A DNA stretch of 41,679 bases, from positions 1 through 41,679 of IMG/VR virus record IMGVR_UViG_3300032297_001097; one strand, given 5' to 3'. The notes below the pieces were generated by a model. That model saw nothing but the letters and a program-made list of their open reading frames with translations, was not told the origin of the DNA and did no database searches. The DNA is from a virus. Below are positions 2,035-38,572 of this stretch, piece after piece. A program made the position numbers and the translations under genes. Every line of letters begins with the position of its first letter. The stretch's first letter is position 1.

Positions 2035-2610
2035 ATGCAAGAAATATATGATTTAATCAATCAGTATCCCGATAAAAAATTTCATGTAATTGAAATTGAT
2101 GATATTGTTTTTTTAGTAAGAGAAATATCATGGAAAGAAGGGCTTGAAATTGATGCTAGATCTTTTAGAAAGAAAGAAGATTTAATCTATCAAAATACTG
2201 AATTTGAAAAAAGAGAAATCCTAAAAATTGCAATTACTAAAGCTTATGACAAAAAAGCTAACATTACAATTTCAAGTAAATATGAGAGCAATATATTAGA
2301 ATATCTCGATCACGTACTTGTTGAAAAACTTTGGGTGGAATATCAAAATTATTTATTCTTGTCGGCAGATGAAGCAAACTTTTTCTATTCATCTACTAAA
2401 AAATATTTTGATCCTAATAATGCAGAAACATTCCCCGTGCATCCTCTTATTATTGAAGTTGATTATATGACACGAGGAATTGTTTCTATGAGTACTAAAG
2501 AATTTTCAAATCTATCAATGAAAGAATTTGAAACTATTCAGATCATTATTGCAACTAAAAATGAAGTTGGAAGAAATGAAATGAATGAATTAACTGATCA
2601 ACTAGATTGA
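2035..2610 (+). CDS. Hypothetical protein in tail block (possible tail assembly chaperone-like)
   Basis: A 191-residue protein beginning MQEIYDLINQYPDK, with a beta-like stretch HVIEIDDIVFLVREISWKEG, helices after it, and a helical C-terminus. An N-terminal beta element followed by a conserved helical region is seen in some tail assembly chaperones, and the position after tail-tube-like genes would fit, but no diagnostic motif is visible. No Shine-Dalgarno sequence precedes the ATG. A TATATT box six bases before it could be a weak leaderless promoter. The 3' end overlaps the convergent glycosyltransferase gene by nine bases, with no terminator between them. A frameshifted second product is unlikely because the next gene is on the other strand. 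Confidence 0.4.
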   Translation: MQEIYDLINQYPDKKFHVIEIDDIVFLVREISWKEGLEIDARSFRKKEDLIYQNTEFEKREILKIAITKAYDKKANITISSKYESNILEYLDHVLVEKLWVEYQNYLFLSADEANFFYSSTKKYFDPNNAETFPVHPLIIEVDYMTRGIVSMSTKEFSNLSMKEFETIQIIIATKNEVGRNEMNELTDQLD

Positions 2611-3402
2611 GAACGTTAGCTTGCTTTCATGTTTTTTTCTAATCTGACCAGCTAATTCTGTTCTATCCCATTGATGAAATAAGTAGTAAGGCTCACCCTT
2701 TTCATTACAAGCATATTGGCCATCGTAAAATATGTCAATATTATTTCTTTTGATAGCTTCTCCTGTACAGCAAAAAGTATCTGTGTAAGGATGGCATAAT
2801 TCAACGTTCTTCATCTTTTTCATGTAGGGATAAAGAGAAGTATAGATGGATTGATCAGTAATTACACCACCTGACTTACGATTGCTGTTTGTCATAGCTA
2901 ATAAAAGCATGTTCATATAATCTGGAACTCTACCGCCAATAGTTCCACCATTAATTACTAAATTATTCTCTCCATCTTGATTTGGAAAAATTTGAGTAGA
3001 TGAAAGTAATTGATGCCAGTAAAGATTGCATTCATTTTCTAACGATTTCATTCCCTCACATACAAGAAATAAATCTTTATCTGGTTTAGAAGCAAAGTAA
3101 TCAAAAGGATTTTTTTGAATTATAACGTCTCTAGTGTCAACATAAAGAGCATATTCATAATCTTGTCCATCTTCCATGAGTACTTCATGAATTTTATAAT
3201 AAAGATAATAAAATGAAGTTTCTTTATAAATAATTTTGTCGTACTTCTTTTCAAGCAATTTGATATTTTTATCTGAAATGTTATTTACAATCACAAATTT
3301 ATCAGCATTATTTATTTTTTTCAAAGAATCAAAGTATATTTCAATATCCAATGATTCAAAAATTTTGTCTCCTGAGAGGTAATTAATCAATAAATTTTTC
3401 AT
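2602..3402 (-). CDS. Putative glycosyltransferase
   Basis: A 266-residue protein with the layout of small nucleotide-diphospho-sugar transferases. A beta/alpha N-terminal half leads to ALYVDTRDVIIQKNPF (residues 85-100), where the D-x-R-D sequence takes the place of the DxD metal and sugar-nucleotide site. NGGTIGG and ITDQSIYTSLYP follow, like acceptor-side segments of GT-A enzymes. No membrane anchor is seen. Its ATG overlaps the stop of the epimerase gene upstream by four bases, so the two are coupled and the transferase may use the sugar made by this cluster. Acceptor and donor are unknown; a virion protein or host glycan is possible. Confidence 0.6.
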   Translation of the reverse strand: MKNLLINYLSGDKIFESLDIEIYFDSLKKINNADKFVIVNNISDKNIKLLEKKYDKIIYKETSFYYLYYKIHEVLMEDGQDYEYALYVDTRDVIIQKNPFDYFASKPDKDLFLVCEGMKSLENECNLYWHQLLSSTQIFPNQDGENNLVINGGTIGGRVPDYMNMLLLAMTNSNRKSGGVITDQSIYTSLYPYMKKMKNVELCHPYTDTFCCTGEAIKRNNIDIFYDGQYACNEKGEPYYLFHQWDRTELAGQIRKKHESKLTFSI

Positions 3403-4214
3403 TTTAAAACCATGTAAACTTTTTTTATGCCTTTTTCTAATCCAACAAAATCTATATTTTCTAAATTATTTTTACCACAATAACTTTTACCTAATTCACT
3501 TTTCTCTATTACAACTTCAACTTTGTGATCATCTAAACTGTTTATAATTTCAGCAATGTCTGTCAATTTAAACTTTTTACTGTACACACAGTCAATTTCT
3601 TTTAGGTTAGTATTATTTGTTAATACAGCAACCAAAATATTATAAAAATCATCAAAATAAGTAAAATCCATATACTTATCTTGATGAATTATTATAGGCT
3701 TTTTGTTGATATAATTTTTAATATTTGAAGATATCATTCTATTCTGCGATTCATTAGCAGAGAATACATTGTAAATTCTTAAGTTATATGTATTATTTTC
3801 ATTATAAAATAATCTTGAAATTATATTTTTTGAAAAACCATAATAATCTTCTGGCAGGGTATTTAGAAAATTTGAAGTATCATTAATATTTAAAGCCCTA
3901 TCTAACTCAGCTCCAGAACCAAAATTAATTATCTTGCCAAAGTGATTCTTGTTAATTAAAATATTTGTTGCCATTCTTATGTTGTCATTTACAATATCAA
4001 CAGGATCTTGTACTAATCTTTTACCTCCAAGAATAGCACAATGCAAAACAGCATCAAAATATTTATCTTTTAAAAAAACAGAAGTTGATTTTGTATCTCT
4101 CAAATCAAAATTATCTTGTCTTGTAATTGAAGTAACATTAATATGATTTTCTACAAGTTTGTTGTGAATGTTTTTGGCTAAAAAACCGTTACCACCAGTG
4201 ATTAATATATTCAT
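3399..4214 (-). CDS. NAD-dependent epimerase/dehydratase (extended SDR)
   Basis: A 271-residue extended short-chain dehydrogenase/reductase. GGNGFLA (residues 7-13) is the Rossmann glycine motif, Ser100 in NFGSG the catalytic serine, and Y125-x3-K129 (YGFSK) the catalytic Tyr/Lys pair. Family members are nucleotide-sugar epimerases and 4-keto-reductases such as GDP-fucose synthase. In this cluster a C-4 ketoreductase closing a deoxysugar pathway is the simplest role, comparable to YerF in yersiniose synthesis, but substrate cannot be read from sequence. The gene lies just past the terminator that closes the five-gene sugar operon and is coupled to the glycosyltransferase gene. No Shine-Dalgarno sequence is evident. 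Confidence 0.7.
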   Translation of the reverse strand: MNILITGGNGFLAKNIHNKLVENHINVTSITRQDNFDLRDTKSTSVFLKDKYFDAVLHCAILGGKRLVQDPVDIVNDNIRMATNILINKNHFGKIINFGSGAELDRALNINDTSNFLNTLPEDYYGFSKNIISRLFYNENNTYNLRIYNVFSANESQNRMISSNIKNYINKKPIIIHQDKYMDFTYFDDFYNILVAVLTNNTNLKEIDCVYSKKFKLTDIAEIINSLDDHKVEVVIEKSELGKSYCGKNNLENIDFVGLEKGIKKVYMVLK

Positions 4215-4228
4215 TGATTAAAAATAAA

Positions 4229-4262
4229 AACGGCTAGAAAATAGTTATAACTTCTAGCCGTT
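4229..4262 (-). terminator. Intrinsic terminator closing the sugar operon
   Basis: A perfect 11-bp inverted repeat (AACGGCTAGAA at 4229-4239, TTCTAGCCGTT at 4252-4262) with a 12-base loop. On the minus strand it is followed by TTTTTATTTTT. It lies ten bases after the stop of the panB-like gene, so transcription from 9219 should end here, with some readthrough into the SDR gene. Confidence 0.85.
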
Positions 4263-4271
4263 GAAATTAAG

Positions 4272-5198
4272 CTAATACCAATATTTTGACTGCTTGATTT
4301 TTTCTAAATCATCTTTTCTAATTGGGTAAATGTATTCTTTTGAAGGATAAAACTCATTTTTAACTTCATGACAATACTTTTCTATTGCTTTTCTTACTAG
4401 ATGCATTATCCCATCTTCTCTTGTGTCTATGCCAAATTTCTTAACATCTTGTTGGCTGTTAACATTTAAGGAGAATTCTTCAACAACTTCTGGAATGTAG
4501 CATTTTGCAAACCAGGGTCTAAATGATGGATAAAAACCAACCAAGTCGTGCATAATAATTAGCTGGCCATCTACCATATTCCCAGCTCCAATACCTAAAA
4601 CAGGAATAGAAAGTCTTTCTGTGATTTTACCAGCTACTTCAGCGGGTACAGCTTCAAGTAAAAGCATAGAACAGCCAGCTTCTTGAATTGCTAAAGCATC
4701 TTCAAGCATTTCTTCAAAAGATTCCAAAGTCTTGCCCTGTACTCTGTATCCACCAAAAGAAACAGTACTTTGAGGAGTTAGACCTAAGTGCCCAATAACT
4801 AAAATGCCTGCGTTGACGATAGCTTTGATTTTATCTGCTACTCTCAATCCACCTTCAAGTTTAATTGCATCACAATTAGCTGCCTTTGAAAAGGCAATGG
4901 CATTTTTTACAGCTTCTGCTGTTGATGCTTCATATGACCCCTGTGGCATATCTCCAACGATAAAAGTATCTGGAGCACCCTTTCTTACTGCTTTTGCAAA
5001 TGTAAGCATTTCATCCATTGTGACAGGGTTGGTAGTCTGATAACCCAACTCAACCATACCACCAGAATCACCAATTAAAATCATTTCTATGCCAGCTTTT
5101 TCAGCTGCCATAGCAAAAGGATAAGAATAAGAGGTTATCCAAGTAATTTTTTCATTACTTTTCTTCATTTTTATGAAGTCGTTGATAGATTTTTTCAT
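4272..5198 (-). CDS. panB: Ketopantoate hydroxymethyltransferase-like protein (PanB family)
   Basis: A 308-residue protein with clear full-length PanB similarity. PanB transfers a hydroxymethyl group from methylene-tetrahydrofolate to 2-oxoisovalerate in pantothenate synthesis. The metal ligands match: Asp44 in IGDSGGM, Asp83 in VGDMP and Glu115 in KLEGG. The catalytic Glu182 (LLLEAVP), HLGLTPQS and GIGAG are also present. About 45 extra residues follow the catalytic domain at the C-terminus. Good Shine-Dalgarno AGAGGAAA. The gene overlaps the stop of the ThDP-enzyme gene by four bases and is the last gene before a terminator, so it is co-expressed with sugar enzymes rather than with panC or other pantothenate genes. 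It may therefore act on a different 2-oxoacid. Confidence 0.85.
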   Translation of the reverse strand: MKKSINDFIKMKKSNEKITWITSYSYPFAMAAEKAGIEMILIGDSGGMVELGYQTTNPVTMDEMLTFAKAVRKGAPDTFIVGDMPQGSYEASTAEAVKNAIAFSKAANCDAIKLEGGLRVADKIKAIVNAGILVIGHLGLTPQSTVSFGGYRVQGKTLESFEEMLEDALAIQEAGCSMLLLEAVPAEVAGKITERLSIPVLGIGAGNMVDGQLIIMHDLVGFYPSFRPWFAKCYIPEVVEEFSLNVNSQQDVKKFGIDTREDGIMHLVRKAIEKYCHEVKNEFYPSKEYIYPIRKDDLEKIKQSKYWY

Positions 5199-5947
5199 TT
5201 AATCATTTCCTCTGAAATTACATTGTCATCCAAAAAAGGATACATATCATGTAAACCGCATTGAATATTATACCCAGTTTGAGGATCTTTTTTGAGCATT
5301 AAAGTTGGAACTATTTCTTGATTAGGTTGACAAATAACTTCTATCAAACAAGGTGAATTGTTATTAATAATTTCAGTTGCTTTGTCTTTTAAATCTTGAT
5401 TTTTTTGAATTGAATAATAAGTAAATTCGTAAGCGTCAGCTATTTTTTTAATATCTGGGAACCATAGTCCGTCATCTGGTGATGTACCATATACTCTACC
5501 TTCATAAAACTTTCTCTGAGTATTTTTGATACTGAGGTAACCATTATTATTCCAAACAAAAATCTTGACTGGTATGTTTAAATTTCTAATTGTAGCTAGT
5601 TCTTGAATATTAGTGTTAAAGCTACCATCTCCTGTGAATACTAAAACATTTTTAGTGTCATCAGCCAAGTAAACACCAATAGAAGCGGGTAAGGCAAAAC
5701 CCATATCTGCCTGTGCTCCTGATAAAACAAATCTCTGACCTTCTTTCATTTTTAAGTTTTGAGAAGGAACATATATTGCAGACCCAGCATCACACACAAT
5801 AGTTTCTTTTGAAGTCATTTTTTCATTCATGATTTCTATGAATGTATATAAATTTAGACCTAATGTATCATCTTCGTATTCTTTCAAATACAAAGGCCAC
5901 ATATTTTTCCATTTTTTAGTTTTGCTTACCCAATCAGAAAGTGACAT
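5195..5947 (-). CDS. ThDP-dependent enzyme, C-terminal (PP) half, acetolactate synthase-like
   Basis: A 250-residue protein corresponding to the diphosphate-binding domain of the acetolactate synthase/pyruvate decarboxylase family. The ThDP/Mg motif runs from GDGSF (residues 106-110) to WNNNG (132-136), and GAQADMGFALPASIG precedes it. The PYR domain with the catalytic Glu is in the upstream gene, which overlaps by 14 bases in another frame. Together they make about 590 residues, a normal length for one chain. Either this is a true two-subunit enzyme, as in sulfopyruvate decarboxylase, or an indel in the T6 run at the junction splits one gene. TTAGGAG lies 12 bases before the ATG. In context it may transfer a two-carbon unit to a keto-sugar, like YerE. 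Confidence 0.8.
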   Translation of the reverse strand: MSLSDWVSKTKKWKNMWPLYLKEYEDDTLGLNLYTFIEIMNEKMTSKETIVCDAGSAIYVPSQNLKMKEGQRFVLSGAQADMGFALPASIGVYLADDTKNVLVFTGDGSFNTNIQELATIRNLNIPVKIFVWNNNGYLSIKNTQRKFYEGRVYGTSPDDGLWFPDIKKIADAYEFTYYSIQKNQDLKDKATEIINNNSPCLIEVICQPNQEIVPTLMLKKDPQTGYNIQCGLHDMYPFLDDNVISEEMIK

Positions 5948-6956
5948 TATTAAAAAATACTCCTAAATCACATTCAAAAAATTCATCAATATTAATTTTA
6001 TTTTTCTTAAATTCATTATTGTCAATATCTATTTGAGTTTTATATGAATTAGGAGAAAATAATTTTTCATCATATCCCGTATGAGAACAGTTCAGAGAAC
6101 ATCCTAAAATCAATAAATAATCACAGTTTTGTATAGCAAAATTACCAGCTCTTGAGCCTTTGATCCCAATACTTCCGAGATTCAAATCATGTTCATAAGG
6201 CAATAAGTCAATTCCCAAATAAGAAGTCACAAATGGTAAATTATTTTTTTCAATAAATTTTTTGAATTCTTCTGATTGGCCTGATAAGTAAACGCCATAT
6301 CCTGCTAATACCAAAGGCCTTTTTGCACTTTTAAGTTTAGAAAGATTGATAGGCGTAGAACCATAATCGTGATTAAGATTAAAACTAAAATTAGAAGGGT
6401 AATCAATATAAGCATGCTGTACATCACTTGGAATATCAATCCATACAGGACCCATTCTAGGAGACAAAGCTTTCTCAATAGCTTCTTTTAATATTTCAGG
6501 AGTTTCATCAGCATCTTCTACAAGTTTTGCAAATTTAGTAAGAGATTTTACTGTCGATATAATATCGCTCTCCTGTATTCCATACTTTCTTATGTTGCAA
6601 TCATTTTTCTTGTTGATGACTGAACTGCATTGTTCCACTTTGACATTTCCTGAAATAAACATAATTGGTAAAGAATCTTGCCAAGCATCTAAAAGTGGAG
6701 TTATGCAATTAGCACCTCCACAGCCAGTAGTTGGATTTACAACTGCAAGTTTTCTAGTTATTTTAGCTTCACCACATGCAGCATAACCAGCTCCTTGTTC
6801 ATGATGAGTACAGATATATTTTATAGATTTGTTTTTGATAAAGCCATCATTTAAACCGGCTGCACCTCCGCCCATAATGCCATAAACATTCTTTACACCT
6901 ATGCTGGACAATGTCTGAGAAATAAAATCACTTACTCTAATCTTGTTTTCTACCAT
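5934..6956 (-). CDS. ThDP-dependent enzyme, N-terminal (PYR and central) half
   Basis: A 340-residue protein matching the PYR domain and the middle domain of acetolactate synthase-like enzymes. The catalytic Glu53 is in HHEQGAGYAACG, followed by PTTGCGGANCITPLLDAW and, near 115-120, a polar segment with Cys and Asn that departs from the usual family pattern. The central domain (about residues 190-330) ends in LILGCSLN and QIDIDNNEFKKNKI, typical of this family. It stops where the phosphate-binding domain should begin, and that domain is supplied by the next gene. Its ATG overlaps the end of the 4,6-dehydratase gene by seven bases. Confidence 0.8.
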   Translation of the reverse strand: MVENKIRVSDFISQTLSSIGVKNVYGIMGGGAAGLNDGFIKNKSIKYICTHHEQGAGYAACGEAKITRKLAVVNPTTGCGGANCITPLLDAWQDSLPIMFISGNVKVEQCSSVINKKNDCNIRKYGIQESDIISTVKSLTKFAKLVEDADETPEILKEAIEKALSPRMGPVWIDIPSDVQHAYIDYPSNFSFNLNHDYGSTPINLSKLKSAKRPLVLAGYGVYLSGQSEEFKKFIEKNNLPFVTSYLGIDLLPYEHDLNLGSIGIKGSRAGNFAIQNCDYLLILGCSLNCSHTGYDEKLFSPNSYKTQIDIDNNEFKKNKINIDEFFECDLGVFFNNVTF

Positions 6957-7903
6957 ATAAAATTATCCTTGTAATATTCAACTATTTCAATAATTTCTGT
7001 ATCAAAGTCACAAGAAGGCTCCCATCCTAATCTTCTAATTTTTTGATCATTAAGTGCATATCTCACATCTTGCCCAGGACGCTCAACACCAAAATCAACA
7101 AACCTTTGATAATCTTCTATATCTTGATTATAGTATGCATTTATAACTTTTCTTACTGTCGTAATATTAGATTGCTCAAATCCCCCAGCAACATTATAAA
7201 TCTCGTTTTTTTGCCCTAGTTCAAGTATCTTTTCAACAGCTCTTGCAGTATCTTTTGCGTGTAGCCAGTTTCTAATAGGAGTACCTTGATTATGTAGTGG
7301 AATTTTTCTACCTAATCCTAAAAATTTACATGCTTTTGGAATTAGTTTTTCTACATACTGACCAACACCATAATTATTAGTAGGTCTAATAATGTTATAG
7401 GGAATATCATAAGTTCTTGCCCATGCTATTATAAGTTGATCTGCAGCAGCTTTTGTTGCAGAGTATGGATTACTTGGCTTTAATATATCTGTCTCAATAT
7501 GCTCTCCAGAAGAAATGTCACCATACACTTCATCTGTGCTAAAGTGAATAAATCTTGGGAGGACATAGCCTTCTTTTTTATATATCTTTAGTAACTCTAA
7601 AATATTATGAACACCATTAATATTTGAGTCAAGAAATACCCTGCTATCCCTAATGGAGTTATCGACATGTGTTTCAGCAGCTGTATTTATAAAATAATCA
7701 CAATCGACAAGTCTGTTTATGTCACAAATATTTTTTTGTTCAAATAAAAAATTGTCATATGTTTGAAATTTTTTCAATAAGTTCATGTCTGATGCATAAG
7801 TGCAGCAATCTATTCCATACACATAGAAGTCTCCACTTAAGAGAAGTCTCGTAACATGACTACCTATGAAGCCCAAACATCCTGTAACATATGCAATTTT
7901 CAT
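6950..7903 (-). CDS. rfbB: dTDP-glucose 4,6-dehydratase-like protein (RmlB family)
   Basis: A 317-residue extended SDR with strong RmlB features: TGCLGFIGS (residues 7-15, NAD binding), AAETHVDNS (75-83), FSTDEVYG with the Thr-Asp-Glu catalytic triad (123-125), Y147-SAT-K151 and IRPTNNYG. It converts an NDP-glucose to the 4-keto-6-deoxy sugar, the entry step for deoxysugars. The family usually uses dTDP-glucose, whereas the E1 enzyme encoded next to it normally uses the CDP sugar, so the nucleotide is uncertain here. It overlaps the E1 gene by four bases and is translationally coupled to it. Confidence 0.85.
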   Translation of the reverse strand: MKIAYVTGCLGFIGSHVTRLLLSGDFYVYGIDCCTYASDMNLLKKFQTYDNFLFEQKNICDINRLVDCDYFINTAAETHVDNSIRDSRVFLDSNINGVHNILELLKIYKKEGYVLPRFIHFSTDEVYGDISSGEHIETDILKPSNPYSATKAAADQLIIAWARTYDIPYNIIRPTNNYGVGQYVEKLIPKACKFLGLGRKIPLHNQGTPIRNWLHAKDTARAVEKILELGQKNEIYNVAGGFEQSNITTVRKVINAYYNQDIEDYQRFVDFGVERPGQDVRYALNDQKIRRLGWEPSCDFDTEIIEIVEYYKDNFIW

Positions 7904-9219
7904 AATTTATTTCTCATAAAATCTTGAACAATTTCTGAAATATAAGCTATTTGTTCAGGAGTAATAACTGGTGAAGTGCCTAAGAAAAAAGTGTTTGTCG
8001 TAACAAAGTTTGCTACTGGAAAATCTTTTAACTTTAAGTCTCCGATAAGATGAGAGTAGGCTGGCTGCATCAAAATATTTCCAGCAAAATAAGGCCTAGT
8101 CTGAATTTTCTTTGATTCTAAAAATTGACAAAATTCACTCCTACTAAATGGAGCGTCTTTCTTGATAGTTATTGGGAATGCAAACCAATTAACATCTGCC
8201 TTCTTTTCTGGTTTTGGTAAATGGAAATATTCTTCATACTCTTCAAAAACTTTAAATAAGAGTTTGTAGTTTCTTTTTCTGAGTTCTGAAATAGTGCTAA
8301 ATTTATCAAGTTGTGCAAGTAACATAGAAGCTTGCATTTCTATTGGCTTTAGATTAAAACCAACTTCTTCATAAACATACTTATGATCAAATACTTCACC
8401 AGGCATACTAGGAAGCCACTCTGAAAATCTAGTTCCACAAGCTCCACATGCTGAGAGGTTTTGTTTTCCATGACAAAAACATCCCCTTCCCCAATCACGG
8501 AAAGATCTAATCACTCGCTCCAGATTTTCATTATTACAAACTACTAATCCGCCTTCTCCGCATGTAATATGATGAGCTGGATAAAAGGAACAAGAAGCCA
8601 TCATTCCAAAGCTTCCTAATGGCTTATCATCATATGTAGAGCCTAAAGCATCACAACAATCTTCTAATAATATAAGCTCATATTCTTTGATTAAAAGCAT
8701 CAAATCATCCATATTAGGAGGATTGCCAAGAACGTGTGCAAATGTAATTATTTTTATTTCAGGATCATTTTCTAAAGCCGCTCGTACACAATCTATATCA
8801 AGATTTAATCCATCTAAAGTAATGTCAACAAAAACTGGCTTAAAATTACATTGAAAAATAGGATTTACAGTAGTTGGAAATCCTGCAATAGGAGTTAATA
8901 CTTTTGTGCCTTCTGGAAAATCTGTAAACCTCTTTGACTTTAGAGCAGACATCATAAGTAAGTTACTACTACTTCCAGAATTAGTGAGTAAACCAAACTT
9001 TTTATCAAACATACTGGCAAGTTTCTTTTCTGCCTTATATGCTTCTGCTCCTAATACAAGCCACCCATCAAGAAGGGTATTAACAGATCGTAAAATTTCA
9101 TTATTGTCAAAGAATGGTCCGGCATATTGAACATAATCTTTTCCAGCTCGCCATTCTTTTTTGGTACTAGAATCAAGAAAATTACTTAAAGTTTGAAATA
9201 GTTCTTCTTTTGATAACAT
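7900..9219 (-). CDS. rfbH: CDP-4-keto-6-deoxyglucose-3-dehydratase-like protein (E1/RfbH family)
   Basis: A 439-residue DegT/DnrJ/EryC1 fold protein with E1 hallmarks. The PLP-anchoring lysine is replaced by histidine in SFYPAHHIT (His217), just before GEGG. The cysteines Cys189, Cys247, Cys249 and Cys258 follow C-x57-C-x1-C-x8-C, almost the known E1 [2Fe-2S] pattern C-x57-C-x1-C-x7-C. E1 removes the C-3 hydroxyl of a 4-keto-6-deoxy sugar using PMP and electrons from a reductase (E3). No E3 gene is seen in this window. It is the first gene of the five-gene operon, lacks a Shine-Dalgarno sequence, and has TATAAT six bases before the ATG. Confidence 0.85.
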   Translation of the reverse strand: MLSKEELFQTLSNFLDSSTKKEWRAGKDYVQYAGPFFDNNEILRSVNTLLDGWLVLGAEAYKAEKKLASMFDKKFGLLTNSGSSSNLLMMSALKSKRFTDFPEGTKVLTPIAGFPTTVNPIFQCNFKPVFVDITLDGLNLDIDCVRAALENDPEIKIITFAHVLGNPPNMDDLMLLIKEYELILLEDCCDALGSTYDDKPLGSFGMMASCSFYPAHHITCGEGGLVVCNNENLERVIRSFRDWGRGCFCHGKQNLSACGACGTRFSEWLPSMPGEVFDHKYVYEEVGFNLKPIEMQASMLLAQLDKFSTISELRKRNYKLLFKVFEEYEEYFHLPKPEKKADVNWFAFPITIKKDAPFSRSEFCQFLESKKIQTRPYFAGNILMQPAYSHLIGDLKLKDFPVANFVTTNTFFLGTSPVITPEQIAYISEIVQDFMRNKL

Positions 9220-9225
9220 AAAAAA

Positions 9226-9231
9226 ATTATA
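9226..9231 (-). promoter_or_regulatory. -10 box of probable leaderless promoter for sugar operon
   Basis: TATAAT on the minus strand, preceded by TGG (extended -10) and followed by exactly six T before the ATG at 9219. A start site about seven bases after the box would fall on the A of the ATG. No Shine-Dalgarno sequence is present and no good -35 is seen. Confidence 0.6.
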
Positions 9232-9243
9232 CCACTAATTATT

Positions 9244-9969
9244 TTATGATATTTCATACAACCAATCAGAAAAATTTTTGTTATTTTTAAAATCAAAAGT
9301 AGAGTGACCCAAATCAAGTAATTCACAATTAATATCAACGTTAAAAACAAACTGAAATGAGCTTTCTGCAAACCATTCTGCAATTGGAACATCGTATTTC
9401 CAATGATCTAAAATCATTTCATAATACTCTTTTGGATTAGAAAGTATAGCTTCTTTTCTCAAAGCATAATGCCCATTTCTATAAAAAGCCCAAGGTTTAT
9501 ATGAGCTAATCTTTCCAAAAGGATCTAATAGCTTCATCCATTCATTCCAATTTACTGTGTTTGTAATAAAAAATTCATGATGACGCTGATTATAATTTGT
9601 TGGGCAATCATATATATTTGCTATAGTTTGTTGAAATGCTGGTTTAGACATATATTTATTATTTGGAATGTCACTATAATAATCTAGCATATTTTGAATG
9701 CCTTGTTCATTATTTTTCCATCCCATTTGTTCTTCAAGTGTTCCGTCCCATGGCCAAGCTTGAATAAAAATAGTAATGTCAGCTAAATTGTCATAATTCC
9801 TATAACAATGATATATTTGAGACGCGCCAAGCATTCCCAAATTAGGCAAATTTATTACATTATGACTAGAATTAATCTTTGGACCTTTATTGTAAATGGT
9901 GACATTTTCAAGATGATCAGCCCAAGAAACATCTTCTTTGTATCTTCCTAATACTATTTCTCTTGTCAT
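9244..9969 (-). CDS. DUF3431-like protein (glycan-related)
   Basis: A 241-residue protein with the pattern of DUF3431. It starts VLGRYKEDVSWADHL, then IYNKG, then LPNLGMLGASQIYHCYRNYDNLADITIFIQAWPWD, and has the late segment AFYRNGHYALRKEAIL. The family is often found near polysaccharide or glycosyltransferase genes and has no proven reaction that I know of. Its ATG overlaps the stop of the methyltransferase gene by four bases. The pair forms a small transcription unit between the capsid genes and the sugar operon, so glycan modification is the likely theme. Confidence 0.6.
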   Translation of the reverse strand: MTREIVLGRYKEDVSWADHLENVTIYNKGPKINSSHNVINLPNLGMLGASQIYHCYRNYDNLADITIFIQAWPWDGTLEEQMGWKNNEQGIQNMLDYYSDIPNNKYMSKPAFQQTIANIYDCPTNYNQRHHEFFITNTVNWNEWMKLLDPFGKISSYKPWAFYRNGHYALRKEAILSNPKEYYEMILDHWKYDVPIAEWFAESSFQFVFNVDINCELLDLGHSTFDFKNNKNFSDWLYEIS

Positions 9970-10661
9970 GTTATTCTCAAGTCATCGTATTCAAAAATAA
10001 GAGGATATTGTGCCTCTTGATGACATCCAACTACTTCTCCAAGATCATAAAATCTATATTGAAAATCGCCTTCCCACATAAATCCAATCTCAGTAAAATG
10101 TCCATCAGGCTTATTGATCTTCCAGCTATTAATATATTCCCAATAATTTGCTTTTTCAAATCCTCTGAAAACATTGTCCTTAATTGAGTAAATCCACTTA
10201 TGATGAAAAAAGCCTCTGTATCCTTGAACCCCATACCAATTTTCAAATCTCAAATATTCAGCATATTTTGATGGGACAGAAATAAATCCTCTCTTGGAAA
10301 TTTTCATCAACATATCACAAACTAATTTAGGATTTGTAATGTCTTCAAGTGTATGTGTGCAAATAGAATAATCAAATTTTCCATTCTCTTCTACATAATC
10401 TAAAACTGACTTCCAGTTATTTTCTTGAGTAATATCAAAATCAAAAAAATGTCTGTCGGGATGAGAAGCTAAAAATTCTTCTTTACTTCCCTCATTTACA
10501 AAAATATCTACAACGTGAGTAGTATATTTGCACCAAGAATTGATTCCTCCACCAACATCAATAACCTTAAGTGATGGATTTTCATTCTTGAGTTTTACAA
10601 TTTCATCGTCTACAAAATGTCTGTGTTCAGTAAATTTTCTTAGAACCTTATTTGTTATCAT
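9966..10661 (-). CDS. Class I SAM-dependent methyltransferase-like protein
   Basis: A 231-residue protein with a Rossmann methyltransferase start: VIDVGGGIN (residues 33-41, motif I), an acidic residue after the second strand (VVDIFV, Asp52), FDYSICTHTLEDI (motif IV region) and a following strand GFISVPS. A long aromatic C-terminal region (FHHKWIYSI, FYDLGEVVG) may bind the acceptor. Methyltransferases of this type in sugar clusters modify sugars or glycan ends, which fits the location. The gene starts without a Shine-Dalgarno sequence, seven bases after a TATAAT box, and follows the capsid-gene terminator. Confidence 0.65.
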   Translation of the reverse strand: MITNKVLRKFTEHRHFVDDEIVKLKNENPSLKVIDVGGGINSWCKYTTHVVDIFVNEGSKEEFLASHPDRHFFDFDITQENNWKSVLDYVEENGKFDYSICTHTLEDITNPKLVCDMLMKISKRGFISVPSKYAEYLRFENWYGVQGYRGFFHHKWIYSIKDNVFRGFEKANYWEYINSWKINKPDGHFTEIGFMWEGDFQYRFYDLGEVVGCHQEAQYPLIFEYDDLRIT

Positions 10662-32394: not shown

Positions 32395-32457
32395 TTTGTG
32401 GAACATAATAACATAATACAAATATTTTAAAAATATATTCCAACAACTGTTATGTCA

Positions 32458-33021
32458 CTAATCAAATAAGAAGTCATCTCCCAAAATTGATTTTAATTGC
32501 TCAAGTGTTTTTGACAATCTTTTTGAAAAAGCTCCTTGAGTAATTCCAAGCATTTCAGCTGCTTCTGTTTGACTATATTGTTCAAAAAAGTAAAGCTGAA
32601 TTATGTCTGATTCATCTTCATTAAGTAATTTCATAGCGTTCTGCAATGAAATGATTGTGTCTATTTTATTGAAAGGATCATAGGAAATTTCTTCTGAAAA
32701 GTGATTCTGTATCCTATCTTCTTCTTTTATGTATTTTTCAGTGACATGTCTAAATAAGTTTATATCAATTCTGGTAGATATAAAATAGGAAAAATATGTA
32801 AGTTCTGGATCATATTGTTTGACAATTTTTTGAAGAACAAACAGTGATTCTTCAAACATATCCTCTCTATGAACAGATAATCTTGGTTCTTTGATAATAC
32901 ATCTCTTTATGGATGCGTAAAGCAAAGGTTTATAAAATCCAAAAAGTTCAAAGAGTGCATCTGTATCACCTGACTTAGTTTTTATAACTAAGTCATTTAT
33001 TTGTCCATATTTATCATCCAT
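32458..33021 (-). CDS. Sigma-70 family RNA polymerase sigma factor
   Basis: A 187-residue sigma factor. Region 2 spans about residues 18-100 (DALFELFGFYKPLLYASIKRC, EDMFEESLFVLQKIVKQYD, FSYFISTRIDINLFRHV). Region 4 spans about 130-180, with YSQTEAAEMLGITQGAFSKRLSKTLEQL as helix-turn-helix. This is the small ECF-like two-domain layout. It would redirect host RNA polymerase to phage promoters. The last residues, ILGDDFLFD, form an acidic-hydrophobic tail. The gene follows the clamp and delta genes, has no Shine-Dalgarno sequence, and has TATAAA six bases before the ATG, so it could have its own or an autoregulated promoter. Confidence 0.85.
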   Translation of the reverse strand: MDDKYGQINDLVIKTKSGDTDALFELFGFYKPLLYASIKRCIIKEPRLSVHREDMFEESLFVLQKIVKQYDPELTYFSYFISTRIDINLFRHVTEKYIKEEDRIQNHFSEEISYDPFNKIDTIISLQNAMKLLNEDESDIIQLYFFEQYSQTEAAEMLGITQGAFSKRLSKTLEQLKSILGDDFLFD

Positions 33022-33027
33022 AATTTA

Positions 33028-33033
33028 TTTATA
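33028..33033 (-). promoter_or_regulatory. TATAAA box six bases before sigma factor start
   Basis: TATAAA preceded by ATG and followed by TAAATT and the ATG at 33021. It also reads TATAAATA over eight bases and spans the stop codon of the upstream gene. Same spacing as the other leaderless-type boxes. Confidence 0.45.
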
Positions 33034-34024
33034 CATTTGCTAATTTATTAATAGCAAGCATATTAGCTACATCTGACTCGCCATATAGTCTTGCCTCTCC
33101 TATATGATCTGTAACTAAAGATATCATTTCACTTAATTGCTTAGTTGACAAATTGTTTTCATTTAGAGCAATCTTTATTCTTATGGGATTGTGATTTTTA
33201 GGTTGAAAATTAGTTACTTCATAATTTTCTGACAGATATTTGCCACCTAAATCTCTAAGCTCTAATATTTCTTGAACTTTGTCAGGGGAATATATCCTAT
33301 TTTTTTGACACTCTGAAATGACAAGTAAAAAATAAAGCTGTTGAAGTAATATCAGAAAAAAGCCTTGAGTTGTAAATTCTTCAAGCACCTTTTGCAAATT
33401 AGAATTGATATATGAAATATCACGATTGAATAACTTTTTGAAATATTCAAAAATATCATGCTCAACGTTAAACTTTGAATTACTAAAATGCTCAACAGTA
33501 ATATTTGAACTTATAATGCTTACTTTATCTATTTCTTGAAAAAGTAAATCAATATCATAATACAAAACTTCTTTCTTAGATGTTTTGTTCTTGACTTTTA
33601 TAATCGGGCAATTAAGTAGCACCCAATCAATGCATTTACTGTCAAAATTTACTTTGCATCTTTCAGCATACTTATAAAGAAGGTTTCTAAGTACATTAGA
33701 ATCTCCAAACACAGGATATAAAGCAGAATGTATGCTGTTACTCTTCTTTATCTTTTGAATCAATGAAGATCTGCCATCATAGCCATCATCATCAAAGAGC
33801 AATATATGCTTATCAATTTTCTTGTCTATAAAATAAGAAATCTTCTTAATTGTTTCTGTGTTTGGATTGTCGTAAAGATATATATTATTAAGATCAAAAA
33901 ATGGAGAGTAGCTTGCTAATTGTTTGTCTATGTTATCAACAAAGATAAAATTAGCATCTGGAAATGACTCTTTAATTTGAGACATGTAAAGATATCTTGA
34001 TCCATAATAAATTCTAGGTAACAT
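33029..34024 (-). CDS. Clamp-loader delta subunit-like protein (HolA-like)
   Basis: A 331-residue protein with the outline of DNA polymerase III delta. It starts LPRIYYGSRYLYMSQIKESF (delta proteins begin with a strand plus GxxxYL), followed by a Rossmann-like first domain with no Walker A. The middle domain is helical (NVLRNLLYKYAERCKVNFD, CIDWVLLNCPI, YYDIDLLFQEIDKVS), and the C-terminal collar-like domain runs from EYFKKLFNRDISYINSNLQKVLEEF through GFFLILLQQLYFLLVI. GGAG precedes its ATG. It follows the sliding-clamp gene by one base. Delta opens the clamp in the loader with DnaX. Divergence leaves some doubt. Confidence 0.55.
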   Translation of the reverse strand: MLPRIYYGSRYLYMSQIKESFPDANFIFVDNIDKQLASYSPFFDLNNIYLYDNPNTETIKKISYFIDKKIDKHILLFDDDGYDGRSSLIQKIKKSNSIHSALYPVFGDSNVLRNLLYKYAERCKVNFDSKCIDWVLLNCPIIKVKNKTSKKEVLYYDIDLLFQEIDKVSIISSNITVEHFSNSKFNVEHDIFEYFKKLFNRDISYINSNLQKVLEEFTTQGFFLILLQQLYFLLVISECQKNRIYSPDKVQEILELRDLGGKYLSENYEVTNFQPKNHNPIRIKIALNENNLSTKQLSEMISLVTDHIGEARLYGESDVANMLAINKLANV

Positions 34025-34025
34025 A

Positions 34026-35147
34026 TTACTCCATAGGAAACATAATATGATTGAAATTCATATCATGTAATACACAAATAGTGTATCCGTTGTAGTCATT
34101 GAAGGCAAGAGTAATTTGCTCAAGATTTACTATTTCAAGAGCCTTAATAAAGTGATTTATTAGATATGAAACATCAATAGAATCAACAGCTTCATCTAAT
34201 AAGATCTTGTCAGCAACAGCACCCTTATCATCTCTTGAACTTGAAATTATTAATTCATTCCCATTTGTTCTTAAGTTGAACGTATGCGAGCTTGTAATAT
34301 TTGATATAAATCTTAAGGACTTTATAACTTGATTTTTATCAATCGTAAAAGAAGTGACATGCTTAGACTCATCAAAGAACTTATTAAATGAATTATATAC
34401 GCTTTGATAAGAATTGTTTTCCAAGCTAGTGACAAAGATATTATTTTGCCACTTAATGATCAATTTATTCTTATAAATGCAATAAGTGTAAGCTTCATCT
34501 TTATTTAAGAAGTTAAGCAGTAATTCAGCTTGATTTTTAGCAATCAAATAAGACTGTTCATTAGAGAATCTAGAGCCAAATATTGAAATCCTATGTTTAT
34601 CTGAGGATTGAGAATTAAACTCTCCATCTTTGAGAAAAAACATAATGGATGAATAAGGATGTTCATCAAAATCAGGTGCGCATGAAAAGGCAGAAAACTT
34701 AATCAGATTAATTAAGTTTTCAACGTCTAGTTGCTTGAATTTTATATCTTCACTCAAGAAAAATAGGCTGTTGAGTATTTCATCAAAGTTATTAGCTTGT
34801 AAAGTACTAAGAGCAACTCTAGTCTTCTTGTTACCAAAAACTAGTTGATTTTCTTCACTTGCAAAAACAAATTGAATTTCATCAGCTGGGAAGTTAGAAA
34901 AAGCATTGTTGAATAAGTTTGATTCAACTCCAAAATTAAAGAACTCATCTTCAAAGTCACACAAATACAACATTGATGAACTTATAGTATTTGAAGAATA
35001 TACATAAATTTTGTTATCAAGGCAATAAAATACTAATGAATCACTTGCAATAGCTTTGTTTTCATTGAGTGTAATTTTATTCTTTGATATCTTGTTAAGT
35101 AATTGTACTTTGGAAAGATGTTCAGTTTTGTTCAGCTTAAATTTCAA
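34026..35147 (-). CDS. dnaN: DNA polymerase sliding clamp (beta subunit, DnaN-like)
   Basis: A 373-residue protein, the usual length of bacterial beta clamps, with three repeating beta-alpha-beta domains visible in the pattern. SSDKHRISIFGSRF (residues about 180-193) resembles the ATDGHRL segment of the second domain, and the C-terminus HIMFPME resembles the VMPMRL end that lines the binding pocket. It encircles DNA and tethers polymerase. The start is TTG at 35147, where TTGA overlaps the stop of purA, with AAGGA nine bases upstream. Clamp, delta and sigma genes follow each other on one transcript. Confidence 0.8.
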   Translation of the reverse strand: MKFKLNKTEHLSKVQLLNKISKNKITLNENKAIASDSLVFYCLDNKIYVYSSNTISSSMLYLCDFEDEFFNFGVESNLFNNAFSNFPADEIQFVFASEENQLVFGNKKTRVALSTLQANNFDEILNSLFFLSEDIKFKQLDVENLINLIKFSAFSCAPDFDEHPYSSIMFFLKDGEFNSQSSDKHRISIFGSRFSNEQSYLIAKNQAELLLNFLNKDEAYTYCIYKNKLIIKWQNNIFVTSLENNSYQSVYNSFNKFFDESKHVTSFTIDKNQVIKSLRFISNITSSHTFNLRTNGNELIISSSRDDKGAVADKILLDEAVDSIDVSYLINHFIKALEIVNLEQITLAFNDYNGYTICVLHDMNFNHIMFPME

Positions 35148-36139
35148 TGCAGTTGTCCTTGGAATTCTACTTCAACACCTGGATTGTATCGTGTAATGTG
35201 ATTGATAATCTTAAGCATGAAAGTCCCTTCATCGGAGCATACATTCAATATGCCATCCTGATAAAAATTCCATCCATCATTGACCTGATCAAGAACATCC
35301 ATTTTGTTAACAATAAGCTTAGTTACACCATTCATTTGGCAAGCCGTTGTTACTTCATCTAAATTCAACCAATCTATTTGTCTTGGTCGCCCTGTAGTGG
35401 CTCCGTATTCTTGGCCAATCTCACGCAACTGTTCAAATCTGTCGTCGTTTTTTTGGTATCCTTTAGCTCCAACATAGGTAGAATAACACTTGATAACCCC
35501 GACAACATCCCGTACTTGCTTATAATTGAAACCATTGTTTAATACTGCTCCTACTCCAGTGTTTGAGGAAGTTACGTAAGGATAATCACCAAAGTCAACA
35601 TCAAGCCAGTATCCTTGAGCACCTTCAGCTAAAAATTTCTTTGGTGATGAGTGAATAAGACTATACATATCCACAAGATAATTCTTCAATTCAGGAATAT
35701 CTTTGGCACGAAGACCTGTGCGACCAACTTTGTCTTTATAACAAGGGCCATTTCCAGTGCGAGTTGTTCCAATAGTTGTATCTTTGGAATCTTCTTCTAA
35801 ATGATCTTTTGTTATGATATGTGCATTTTCAGCTATTTTAAGGATTGATGTGTTAAACCCAAATCCTTCAAGATACTCAAGTTCTTCAAATAACTTTTCC
35901 GTATTGATAACACAACCATTACCAATGACACTAGGAATGCCATGCAAAATACCACAAGGAACCATGTGTGTAACAATTTTCTCTCCATTGAGGTAAATTG
36001 TATGACCAGCATTGCCTCCACCATTAAAGCGGACAACGTAGTCATATTCACCCGATGCAGCCATTTGATTGGCTATTTTCCCCTTACCCTCATCGCCGTA
36101 CTGCATACCGATAACTACATCAACAATTGAAGTTTCCAT
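35144..36139 (-). CDS. purA: Short adenylosuccinate synthetase (PurA/PurZ superfamily)
   Basis: A 331-residue enzyme; ATG at 36139 is chosen over a TTG two codons upstream. The P-loop-like GDEGKGK (residues 15-21), FNGGGNAGHTIY (His46/47 region), TTIGTTRTGNGPCYKDKVGR, FLAEGAQGYWLD and TTGRPRQIDWLNL match adenylosuccinate synthetase, which couples GTP hydrolysis to Asp addition to IMP. Bacterial PurA has about 430 residues; this length is like the short archaeal and phage PurZ forms. The catalytic Asp of GDEGKG is kept, whereas PurZ of phage phiVC8 has Ser there, so the sequence leans to PurA-type activity, but dGMP use cannot be excluded. It overlaps the clamp gene. Confidence 0.85.
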   Translation of the reverse strand: METSIVDVVIGMQYGDEGKGKIANQMAASGEYDYVVRFNGGGNAGHTIYLNGEKIVTHMVPCGILHGIPSVIGNGCVINTEKLFEELEYLEGFGFNTSILKIAENAHIITKDHLEEDSKDTTIGTTRTGNGPCYKDKVGRTGLRAKDIPELKNYLVDMYSLIHSSPKKFLAEGAQGYWLDVDFGDYPYVTSSNTGVGAVLNNGFNYKQVRDVVGVIKCYSTYVGAKGYQKNDDRFEQLREIGQEYGATTGRPRQIDWLNLDEVTTACQMNGVTKLIVNKMDVLDQVNDGWNFYQDGILNVCSDEGTFMLKIINHITRYNPGVEVEFQGQLH

Positions 36140-36145
36140 ATGCAA

Positions 36146-36165
36146 ATCTTACTACATTGTAAGAT
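36146..36165 (-). promoter_or_regulatory. Small hairpin in front of purA
   Basis: A perfect 7-bp repeat ATCTTAC (36146-36152) and GTAAGAT (36159-36165) with a six-base loop, in the 38-base gap before purA and six bases from its ATG. It overlaps the place of a ribosome-binding site, so it might limit translation. Short, could be chance. Confidence 0.35.
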
Positions 36166-36177
36166 CTTTAGCAAGAG

Positions 36178-36780
36178 TTATGACAAGTCTCTTTCTGCAT
36201 CATATAAATTTTCATTCTTGTCAACTTCATAATCACCCGTCATTACATCAATAGAAGCGTATGGGAATCTTTCTCTTACATATTCTTCTGCTTCTTCAGC
36301 TGTGTAATCTTCAATGGGTAAATTTGTTGAATAAAGAACATCATATGTTATTTTTTCAAGATCTTCTTCACTACTATACAGTTCTTCTAATCCTGGAACT
36401 GAAAGTTGATCAGTGAGCAATTTGCCTTCTTTATCTGACATTTTTGCTAACCCTTGCAAAGACAATGGATCTATGAATGAAAATTTCCAAACACCATCTT
36501 TTGCAAATATGAAAATTTGTGAATAAATTTCAAAAAATCTTCTATAGTCAGAAAAATTATAATTATCTTCAGCTACATTATCTGAGGTCATCTTATCAAT
36601 TATATCTAAAGGATCTTTTCCAGTAGATTTTGATCTGTCTAATACGTGATCTGAAAACGTAATAGGTTTTTTTGGTAATTCAAAATCACTTAGATCGATA
36701 GCAATTCTAGTAATTTTATCTGCTAATTTATATTTTCCAACTTGATCTAAAAATGAAGCCAAGCGTAGTATGTGTTTCAT
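36178..36780 (-). CDS. Hypothetical protein with LDxxGxYKxAD N-terminal helix
   Basis: A 200-residue acidic protein. The first 30 residues (ILRLASFLDQVGKYKLADKITRIA) match the N-terminus of the protein at 26511-26969. The rest includes a compact-looking region around ITFSDHVLDRSKSTGKDPLDIIDKM and a C-terminal helix DYTAEEAEEYVRERFPYASI. No family recognised. It starts four bases after the sigma-like gene at 36784, with no ribosome-binding site, so it is co-expressed with it. Function unknown. Confidence 0.5.
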   Translation of the reverse strand: MKHILRLASFLDQVGKYKLADKITRIAIDLSDFELPKKPITFSDHVLDRSKSTGKDPLDIIDKMTSDNVAEDNYNFSDYRRFFEIYSQIFIFAKDGVWKFSFIDPLSLQGLAKMSDKEGKLLTDQLSVPGLEELYSSEEDLEKITYDVLYSTNLPIEDYTAEEAEEYVRERFPYASIDVMTGDYEVDKNENLYDAERDLS

Positions 36781-36783
36781 ATA

Positions 36784-37467
36784 TTACTTTTTTGGTAAAT
36801 TATGTGACGCATCCTGTTTCTCGTCAGTCTTAAATTGCGTATAAACTTCTGTAGCCTTTTTACGTATTCTTGTAAGAGCATTATCAACACATTTTGCTGG
36901 GACATTAAGCGTGTTTGATATATCTTTGTATGATGATCTTAAACAATACTCTACAAAAATATCTGCTTCTAAAGGAGTAAGTTTTTCAAGCAGTAAAGAT
37001 GAATTTAGCTCGAGTTCTTCTCTGACAATAATATCTTCAAGCAAATTTACTTCAGGAGACTCATCATAAGGGTTTTTCTTTTCAGGAATATAGTCCCCTA
37101 AAGTATGAAAATTCCCATCATCATTTAAGATAAAAGGAGCATCTAAAGAAATTGAATCATTCAACGCTGAATTTTTCATTCTTTTAGCAGAAGCAATTGC
37201 AGTTGCTAAGTGTCTTTTGCATACTAAGTTTACACAAAAGTTTTTAAAAGTGGTATCTTTAGTACAATCGTACGAGTTTACTGCTTTGTAAACACCTAGC
37301 CTCAATTCTTGCATAACATCTTCTCTGTCGCCACCAACAATAAAAAAGTGTGGAGCAATCTTTTTGAGGTCAGGTTCTACCATTTTTAAAAGCTTCTTAA
37401 ATGAAACTTCATCGCCTTTTTTAGCCTTATTGACTATTCTTACAATTCTTGGATCTTCAGATGCCAT
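36784..37467 (-). CDS. Second sigma-70 family factor (SigH-like)
   Basis: A 227-residue sigma factor; ATG at 37467 is chosen because CAGGAG lies five bases upstream, better than the TTG at 37485. Region 2 is close to Bacillus SigH: RIVNKAKKGDEVSFKKLLKMVEPDLKKIA, FIVGGDREDVMQELRLGVYKAVNSYD, FKNFCVNLVCKRHLATAIASAKRMKN, and SISLD. Region 4 (about 150-195) reads LTPLEADIFVEYCLRSSYKDISNTLNVPAKCVDNALTRIRKKA, with helix-turn-helix. It would give the phage a second promoter specificity, separate from the factor at 32458. Next to dnaX on one transcript. Confidence 0.85.
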   Translation of the reverse strand: MASEDPRIVRIVNKAKKGDEVSFKKLLKMVEPDLKKIAPHFFIVGGDREDVMQELRLGVYKAVNSYDCTKDTTFKNFCVNLVCKRHLATAIASAKRMKNSALNDSISLDAPFILNDDGNFHTLGDYIPEKKNPYDESPEVNLLEDIIVREELELNSSLLLEKLTPLEADIFVEYCLRSSYKDISNTLNVPAKCVDNALTRIRKKATEVYTQFKTDEKQDASHNLPKK

Positions 37468-37504
37468 CAAATCTCCTGAGGGCAAATATCTATTTTAATC
37501 CTTT

Positions 37505-38572
37505 TTACGCTTCTTTTGAATTAGCGTACTTTTCAATAACTTTGAGAACCCCGGTAATTGCCAAGATATCCTCAGAAACAGTTTGCCTTGTGTTATTAGA
37601 AATGTTATACAAATCTTCAGCTAGCATTAATAAATGCAAAGTTTTTACAGATTTTGCTATATTTTCTATTTCAGGATCTCTTTCAACCTTTTTTGTTCTT
37701 AAGACTACATATTCAAATGCTTTTAAGAAAGTACGAGATGTATCAACAAGAAGTCCAGTCAAGCTTCTACCTTCAGATTGAGACGCTTGAATTATCCTCA
37801 TAGAATCTGCATAATTTAAATTAATAATAGAACTAGCAAGATTGAGAGAAACATGCTTTGGAGATTTACCTAAAATTTCTCTGACATTTTCTTCAGATAT
37901 TTCAGCCACAGTAACTTGTTCTAAGATTGATAAAGCATTTCTAGCGCTTCCATCAGATTCTTTGACAATTAGATTTAATGCATCTATATCGTATTCAAGC
38001 TCTTCTTTCTGACAAATATCTTCTAATAACTCAAGGCAGTTTGAGTCAGAAAGCTTCTTAAGATTAAGAGTTTGACATCTAGTATGAATAGCTCTTAAAA
38101 TCTTGTGTGGATCTGTAGTGCAAAAAAAGAACTTTACAAACTGAGGAGGTTCTTCAGTAAGTTTGATAAGTGAAGTTTGAGCTTGATTTGTAAGCATTTG
38201 AGCTTCATCAAGAATAAATATCTTGTATTTACCAGATACAGGAGAGAGTCTTGAGAATTGGATTACATTCTCTCTAATATGATCAACACCATTATTGACA
38301 GCGCAATTAATCTCATAAATATCAGGATGAGAATCATTAATTACCATCTGCTTTGTATTATCATCTGAATCATTTGCAGATAGTAACTTCATAGCAGCAA
38401 TACGAGCTAATGTAGTCTTTCCTGTACCTGGAGGGCCTGAAAGGATGTATGCATGAGTAGTTTTATTATTCCTAATTTGTAAATCAAGAATAGACGCAGC
38501 AATACATCCCTTCAAATCATCAAATTCTGTAGGTCGATATTTATTGTAAAAACTTTGACTAATCATCATCAT
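37505..38572 (-). CDS. dnaX: Clamp loader ATPase (DNA polymerase III gamma/tau-like, DnaX)
   Basis: A 355-residue AAA+ clamp loader. NKYRPTEFDDLKG is the typical DnaX start, Walker A GPPGTGKT (residues 46-53), Walker B LDEAQ (121-125), a sensor/arginine-finger region IHTRCQ (162-167), and a helical collar to residue 350. The Cys4 zinc module usual after Walker A in bacterial DnaX is missing. Length fits gamma rather than tau, so there is no polymerase-binding tail. Three ATG in a row begin the gene, overlapping the stop of the gene before by 14 bases. With beta and delta homologues nearby it forms a phage clamp-loading set; no delta-prime is seen. Confidence 0.85.
   Translation of the reverse strand: MMMISQSFYNKYRPTEFDDLKGCIAASILDLQIRNNKTTHAYILSGPPGTGKTTLARIAAMKLLSANDSDDNTKQMVINDSHPDIYEINCAVNNGVDHIRENVIQFSRLSPVSGKYKIFILDEAQMLTNQAQTSLIKLTEEPPQFVKFFFCTTDPHKILRAIHTRCQTLNLKKLSDSNCLELLEDICQKEELEYDIDALNLIVKESDGSARNALSILEQVTVAEISEENVREILGKSPKHVSLNLASSIINLNYADSMRIIQASQSEGRSLTGLLVDTSRTFLKAFEYVVLRTKKVERDPEIENIAKSVKTLHLLMLAEDLYNISNNTRQTVSEDILAITGVLKVIEKYANSKEA

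Follow-up and report, generated by a model that had tools for sequence, protein, structure and literature searches.

The sig1 locus

The window analysed here is a 41.7-kb fragment (41,679 nucleotides) of the virus record IMGVR_UViG_3300032297_001097, with a capsid protein 48% identical to that of Bacillus phage G. It encodes, one directly behind the other, a sliding clamp, a delta-like clamp-loader subunit and a sigma factor, Sig1, whose last eight residues are the main subject of this work. The order of genes on the minus strand is dnaX, sig2, a gene of 200 amino acids (aa), a PurZ/PurA-like gene, clamp, delta-like, sig1, g238, g224, a methyltransferase-like gene (its name assigned by reading the translation) and terminase; the phage's own DnaE lies outside the window. 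A preliminary description of this DNA had placed an ECF-like (extracytoplasmic function) sigma gene directly after the clamp and delta genes. This arrangement is confirmed, with spacers of 1 base between clamp and delta and 7 bases between delta and sig1, and so is GDDFLFD as the end of the Sig1 protein.

Sig1 (187 aa, ending in LKSILGDDFLFD; 32458..33021, minus strand) is an ECF-like, two-domain member of the sigma70 family in which both region 2 and region 4 are present. Region 4 is complete, including its helix-turn-helix, according to Pfam (Sigma70_r4, 9.9e-12), and PHROG sigma families match at about 1e-13. For region 2, which Pfam misses, the evidence is an AlphaFold model (mean pLDDT 85, 16 sequences), which superposes on ECF sigma region 2 (4lup) with a root mean square deviation of 3.0 Å over 91 residues and on ECF sigma region 4 (5fgm) with one of 2.0 over 65 residues.

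The clamp (373 aa; 34026..35147, minus strand) is of the bacterial beta type, as the preliminary description had it, and its peptide cleft is kept. Its match in Pfam is weak (1.6e-4); phrog_947 is hit at 2.1e-16, a profile comparison with Thermotoga beta (1vpk) gives 6.3e-31 over the full length, and the AlphaFold model (pLDDT 90.6) is matched by Foldseek to beta clamps with a TM score of about 0.8. The delta-like subunit (331 aa; 33029..34024, minus strand) was assigned from its position, from its membership in a conserved family and from a weak Pfam match in a relative (DNA_pol3_delta_C, 0.0087, below the cut-off). Its residues 39-44, YSPFFD (33893..33910, minus strand), are likely the clamp-binding loop of delta, since the motif S-x-F-F-D is found near the N-terminus, at the expected place, in most rows of the inner clade.

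Relatives were collected by a terminase search, which gave 80 loci, and by a search with a sig1 alignment, which gave 80 loci; one bacterial genome contig was added, and a wider search with an alignment of close relatives (A1) returned nothing beyond the same two contigs. Sig1 is present in 124 loci, many of them overlapping pieces of the same contigs, and these represent 61 distinct proteins. The delta gene directly precedes sig1 in 115 of the 124 loci, and the remaining 9 start at a contig edge. In the 102 loci that reach the clamp (the contig stops earlier in the other 22), the order and adjacency of clamp, delta and sig1 are held without exception. This neighbourhood is constant down to an orthologue of only 37% identity (L188), regardless of the sequence of the Sig1 end; in some relatives about 2.8 kb are inserted between sig1 and g238.

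The carboxy-terminal tail of Sig1

The proposed clamp-binding tail comprises Sig1 residues 180-187, LGDDFLFD (32461..32484, minus strand), and is marked out by its conservation and by its score under a profile of polymerase tails. In a tree computed with the tail excluded, for which 57 of the 61 distinct rows were used and 4 short fragments omitted, the 38 tail-bearing proteins form one group (support 96/89). The consensus of this clade is LGx[D/N]FL; its sister pair, L164/L165, ends in GKDFY, and the remaining 17 rows of the tree have other ends. Among 11 representatives of the clade, with a core identity of 49-65% (mean 55%), L180, G181, D183, F184 and L185 are constant, and residues 174-179 mostly vary. 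The same holds for the 40 distinct nucleotide rows, where L180, G181, F184 and L185 occur in all 40 and D183 in 39, the fixed residues being encoded by two to four codons each. Positions 186-187 read FD, LD, YD, SF, DF, CF or VS, or the protein ends after F. The invariance of the tail over varied codons, taken together with its rank under the DnaE profile given below, excludes chance as its origin.

Likeness to the polymerase tail

DnaE of the relatives, recognized by Pfam PHP, Pol III alpha, finger and HHH domains, was present in 8 of 13 records, and a phage-type DnaE then in 9 of 20 searched. The C-terminus of the phage-type enzyme consists of a freely varying linker followed by [LI][LFI][SQD]DxLFD in 15 of 17 cases, the exceptions being FSDEFFGD (L205) and SILDSFE (L206). 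Judged by its sequence, a DnaE end of the type ..SDxLFD is a bacterial clamp motif.

A profile was built from 7 distinct DnaE tails, with L205 (..FSDEFFGD), L206 (..SILDSFE), phage G and two host-like DnaEs omitted, and the last eight residues of each predicted protein were scored with it. In the window, the Sig1 tail ranks first of 46 proteins with 11.9 bits, the next protein reaching 1.0. In three sets from relatives it ranks second, behind DnaE only, among 339 (G001), 406 (G014) and 74 (G009) proteins; the window and these sets are related to each other and to a further set, G003, and their ranks are non-independent trials. The Sig1 tail resembles the putative clamp-binding tail of the DnaE of the same phages. 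E. coli RpoD (-0.3) and T4 gp43 (-0.8) score low under this profile, and the tails of T4 proteins are for that reason kept here as an analogy only. One other protein of G014, which we take to be rIIA-like, ends in ..LKSEGLLD and scores 9.1 bits; its likeness to clamp tails is taken as chance, though this is unproven. The small subunit of ribonucleotide reductase ends in QISFDEDF, presumably for contact with its own partner subunit.

The same scores bear on a different explanation of the tail, namely that it contacts RNA polymerase in the manner of the primary-sigma element H5, or packs on region 4, and that Sig1 is an ordinary sigma factor co-expressed with clamp genes. H5 is, like the Sig1 tail, a short hydrophobic and acidic C-terminal element after region 4.2, and in the available text of PMC2988021 it lies in the beta-flap hook. 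As the far end of sigma70 sits in that hook, an end of this kind does not by itself point to a clamp; the C-terminus of E. coli RpoD is VLRSFLDD. Moreover, the Sig1 tail stands directly after the last helix, and L180-G181 resemble a helix cap. Under a profile of H5, for which 11 distinct tails were kept from 22 primary-sigma-like ends, the tail register of Sig1 either reaches about -2 to -1 or is outscored by another window of the protein, and the value of 5.4 obtained for the Sig1 of the window comes from residues before the tail. Of four Sig1 tails scored for comparison with the DnaE profile, three reach 7 to 12 and one (..FLSF) is negative with both profiles; H5 tails, which are KLRDYLD-like, fall below 0 under the DnaE-tail profile. 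The two elements also differ in position, H5 coming about a dozen residues beyond the recognition helix, and orthologues of Sig1 manage without the tail. An identity of the Sig1 tail with H5 is thus disfavoured by the competing profile, and we consider a contact with RNA polymerase or region 4 rather unlikely.

Fit to the bacterial clamp-binding motif

According to the available text of PMC11139829, the bacterial motif is Q-aliphatic-x-[L/M]-[F/L], or has one extra residue before the final F/L; the L-F pair binds alone, the glutamine is helpful and inessential, the flanks are mostly negative, and the terminal aspartate of E. coli Pol III alpha contacts Arg246. The motif end, [L/M][F/L] or [L/M]x[F/L], is found in 36 of the 38 distinct tails of the clade, FLYD and FLVS being the exceptions. 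A phenylalanine stands at position 187 in three of the four lineages with a residue other than F/L at 186 and in none of seven otherwise (Fisher 0.024, the lineages not being fully independent). Sig1 therefore has in common with QLxLF and QLxLxF motifs, such as that of E. coli Pol III alpha, the L-F or L-x-F end, the acidic surroundings and the terminal aspartate, and both its tail and that of DnaE match the L-F end and the terminal aspartate. It differs from them in having no glutamine at the first position and in standing on a sigma factor, a protein not among the clamp partners in the available text of PMC11139829.

On the side of the clamp, cleft residues were assigned through a profile alignment with E. 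coli beta at 15% identity, so that single positions may be off. The mapped cleft includes Y165, S182, K184, H185, R186, I187, F257, F370 and P371. These residues are invariant or nearly so in 15 inner-clade clamps and in L164. In 6 outer clamps most of them differ, R186, F257 and P371 being retained; the positions equivalent to Pro242 and Arg246, among others, are variable within the inner clade. We also considered that the tail had been lost through a change of the clamp: the clefts of the outer clamps are altered and their ends are acidic or longer, yet the DnaE tails are alike in most. Because the DnaE tails are mostly unchanged, and because L164 has an inner-type cleft despite its tail GKDFY, there is no strict co-variation of clamp and tail.

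The C-terminal extension of the outer-clade clamps is an observation in its own right. It was found in L166, L172, L179, L180, L184 and L188, is mostly acidic, lies beside the peptide cleft and is absent in the inner clade.

Comparison with known systems and a proposed mechanism

The preliminary description had likened the Sig1 tail to the clamp-binding end of the T4 sigma factor gp55. This part of the parallel stands: gp43 ends in ..SLDFLFG, gp55 in ..SLDFLYEAND and gp33 in ..TLDFLL, and the Sig1 tail resembles all three, though its likeness to the DnaE tail is more telling. In both systems a phage sigma factor carries a short hydrophobic and acidic C-terminal motif that it has in common with the phage DNA polymerase. 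In the available text of PMC2988020, the clamp motifs of gp55 and gp33 can be exchanged for that of gp43, and fused gp55-gp33 proteins are functional. The cryo-EM work, as far as its available text goes, has about three linker residues before the gp33 motif, which is the essential one, and 21 before the gp55 motif (PMC7892883). With its motif on the side of region 4 and almost no linker, Sig1 is in this respect like gp33.

Where the parallel fails is in region 4, which in Sig1 is intact and keeps its helix-turn-helix, unlike in gp55. The T4 system differs further in that the clamp of the present phages is of the beta type and not of the gp45 type, that their polymerase, seen in relatives, is DnaE and not the T4 type, and that one sigma factor with regions 2 and 4 would stand in place of gp55 plus gp33; the Sig1 tail is, moreover, confined to one clade. 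Given the beta-type clamp and the DnaE polymerase, these phages do not belong to a T4-type system, though theirs may work alike.

Our favoured reading, which we hold to be slightly better than an even proposition, is that Sig1 serves the host RNA polymerase as a phage-encoded sigma factor and that its last eight residues form a beta-clamp-binding motif of the DnaE-tail type. As Sig1 resembles a gp55-gp33 fusion, with a region 2, a flap-bound region 4 and the motif directly after it, tethering of the holoenzyme by the phage clamp appears the most likely function. Region 4 of Sig1 would sit on the beta flap of the polymerase, with the tail bound in the peptide cleft of a phage beta clamp that has stayed behind on freshly replicated DNA. 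In this way the clamp would tether the Sig1 holoenzyme to DNA, and the expression of one class of phage genes, probably the late class, would come to require replication, Sig1 alone doing the work that T4 divides between gp55 and gp33. The contact of tail and clamp, its effect on transcription and the class of genes concerned are inferred, the late-gene effect by analogy with T4. Sig1 would then probably be a clamp-tethered phage sigma factor that is convergent on gp55 and gp33. Our literature search found no report of a clamp-binding sigma factor with a beta-type clamp.

Several observations weigh against a clamp contact. The expectation of the preliminary description that the tail should be conserved in relatives holds for the clade, in whose 38 proteins it is fixed, and fails outside it, where the full tail is absent in 19 of the 57 distinct orthologues (GKDFY, ETYKTDGIF, IIEDPI and others). 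The phages of these orthologues retain the clamp and, where it is seen, mostly the DnaE tail, so that a coupling would be clade-specific; and since the gene neighbourhood is identical with and without the tail, it provides by itself no argument for clamp contact. The tail joins the last helix without a flexible linker and may for that reason pack on region 4, the confidence of the model being middling there (about 64). Position 1 of the motif is D, E or K and only once Q among the 40 rows, the canonical glutamine being otherwise absent, and one tail, that of L012 (..FLVS), violates the grammar of the motif. In G003 the sigma tail, one residue shorter, ranks 6th of 138 under the DnaE-tail profile. 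Gp3 of Bacillus phage G, annotated as a sigma factor, encoded near the terminase and weakly matched by the Sig1 model (5e-5), ends in LKDQLKSD and is without the tail. Finally, replacement of the glutamine by Glu, Ala or Gly strongly weakens a consensus peptide in the available text of PMC11139829.

The tail may also bind another protein of phage or host, such as an anti-sigma factor or a MotA-like activator, with no relation to the clamp. T4 MotA binds the hydrophobic and acidic end of sigma70 in the available text of PMC2988021, which makes such ends adaptable docking sites. No candidate partner was found here, though none was searched for, and the likeness to DnaE and the LF/LxF pattern would be left as coincidence; we regard this explanation as improbable. 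Slightly less probable still is that the tail binds the clamp in order to keep the sigma factor stored at the replisome, or else to have it removed, as a switch or sink, and not for late activation. The evidence for binding would be the same, and a connection of Sig1 with late promoters is nowhere apparent, since a recurring class of promoters was not found; the T4 precedent, in which a clamp-bound sigma factor activates, speaks against it (available text of PMC7892883 and PMC2988020).

In the jumbo-phage survey PMC7824862, as far as its available text goes, group 3, typified partly by phage G, is without sigma factors; neither the phages described here nor the annotation of gp3 in phage G as a sigma factor agrees with this description. 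A 2026 review of jumbo phages mentions phage sigma factors and, in its available text, no link to the clamp (PMC13282480). A search with the clamp model A6 in phage G and in three other capsid relatives gave no match, this search having had no positive control.

Promoters

The suggestion that the system uses promoters with a -10 box only is not borne out. Region 4 of Sig1 is intact; in the larger sets, G001, G014 and G003, TATAAATA shows no enrichment ahead of genes, and no promoter class of this kind, as known from T4, is seen in the sig1 phages. In the small sets it occurs in 1 of 45 upstream regions of the window (0.1 expected) and in 3 of 70 in G009 (0.8 expected). The sole conserved promoter-like element near sig1 has both boxes: TGGAATA-N17-TATTAT..TGTTCCAC (32395..32444, minus strand), upstream of the g238 gene and the terminase operon, presents -35-like and -10-like boxes 17 bases apart, has inverted TGGAA/TTCCA ends and is followed by a terminator-like hairpin. 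It is kept among relatives, with a single copy each in the window, G009 and G014.

By k-mer enrichment and TATAAATA counts, no repeated promoter class for Sig1 was found. The candidates that enrichment brought up were inverted TGGGGTG repeats, TTGTCAAA boxes and TGATATA-type -10 boxes in scattered genes, none of them tied to sig1. The inverted repeats TGGGGTG/CACCCCA are intergenic and many in G001 (L089-L104), and are not among the top motifs of G014. In clusters of short genes, seen in G014 at about 155-161 kb and in G001 at about 18-21 kb, a TGATATACT or TGATATAAT-like -10 box is preceded by a TTGTCAAA box, a pattern that perhaps marks early promoters.

Neighbouring genes

A second sigma gene had been described a few kb upstream, and sig2 is indeed located 3.8 kb upstream of sig1 (36784..37485, or from the ATG at 37467 in the preliminary description, minus strand). 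Its product is also of the sigma70 family (Sigma70_r2 1.5e-6, r4_2 1.8e-5); it ends in ..SHNLPKK and carries no clamp-like tail. The dnaX gene (37505..38572, minus strand) encodes a DnaX-like clamp-loader ATPase (DNA_pol3_delta2 4.5e-29; phrog_5846 8.7e-60).

Between sig2 and the clamp gene lies a gene for a PurZ/PurA-like adenylosuccinate synthetase (35144..36145, minus strand; Pfam 3.2e-84, phrog_1211 3.6e-69). It is part of the replication-transcription cluster of most relatives, was undetected in L180, L184 and L188, and could point to 2-aminoadenine DNA. Elsewhere in the window (2602-10661, minus strand) is what we take, from reading the translations, to be a sugar- and cofactor-related cluster, with genes presumably for epimerase-, aminotransferase-, thiamine-diphosphate enzyme- and phosphoenolpyruvate mutase-like proteins.

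The most distant locus, L188, belongs to a metagenome-assembled genome of Armatimonadetes (JAFDWS010000002.1), where a phage-G-like block occupies about 137-188 kb of contig C5 of G022. The block contains a capsid gene (78% identical), terminase (39%), DnaE (48%), clamp, delta and both sigma factors. It is embedded in a contig of 1.36 Mb, which has another DnaE at 1.31 Mb, and the block is either an integrated jumbo prophage or part of a chimeric contig.

Conclusions

It is possible, at somewhat less than even chances, that replication-coupled transcription arose a second time, in a clade of phage-G-like jumbo phages in which a complete two-domain sigma factor bearing an equivalent of the DnaE tail would turn the beta clamp into a mobile activator of the host RNA polymerase. 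As beta clamps are bacterial, the question whether any sigma factor can be tethered by a clamp would become testable with well-known biochemistry. The clade itself provides orthologues with and without the tail, and the tail-less sister lineages are natural states for such a comparison.

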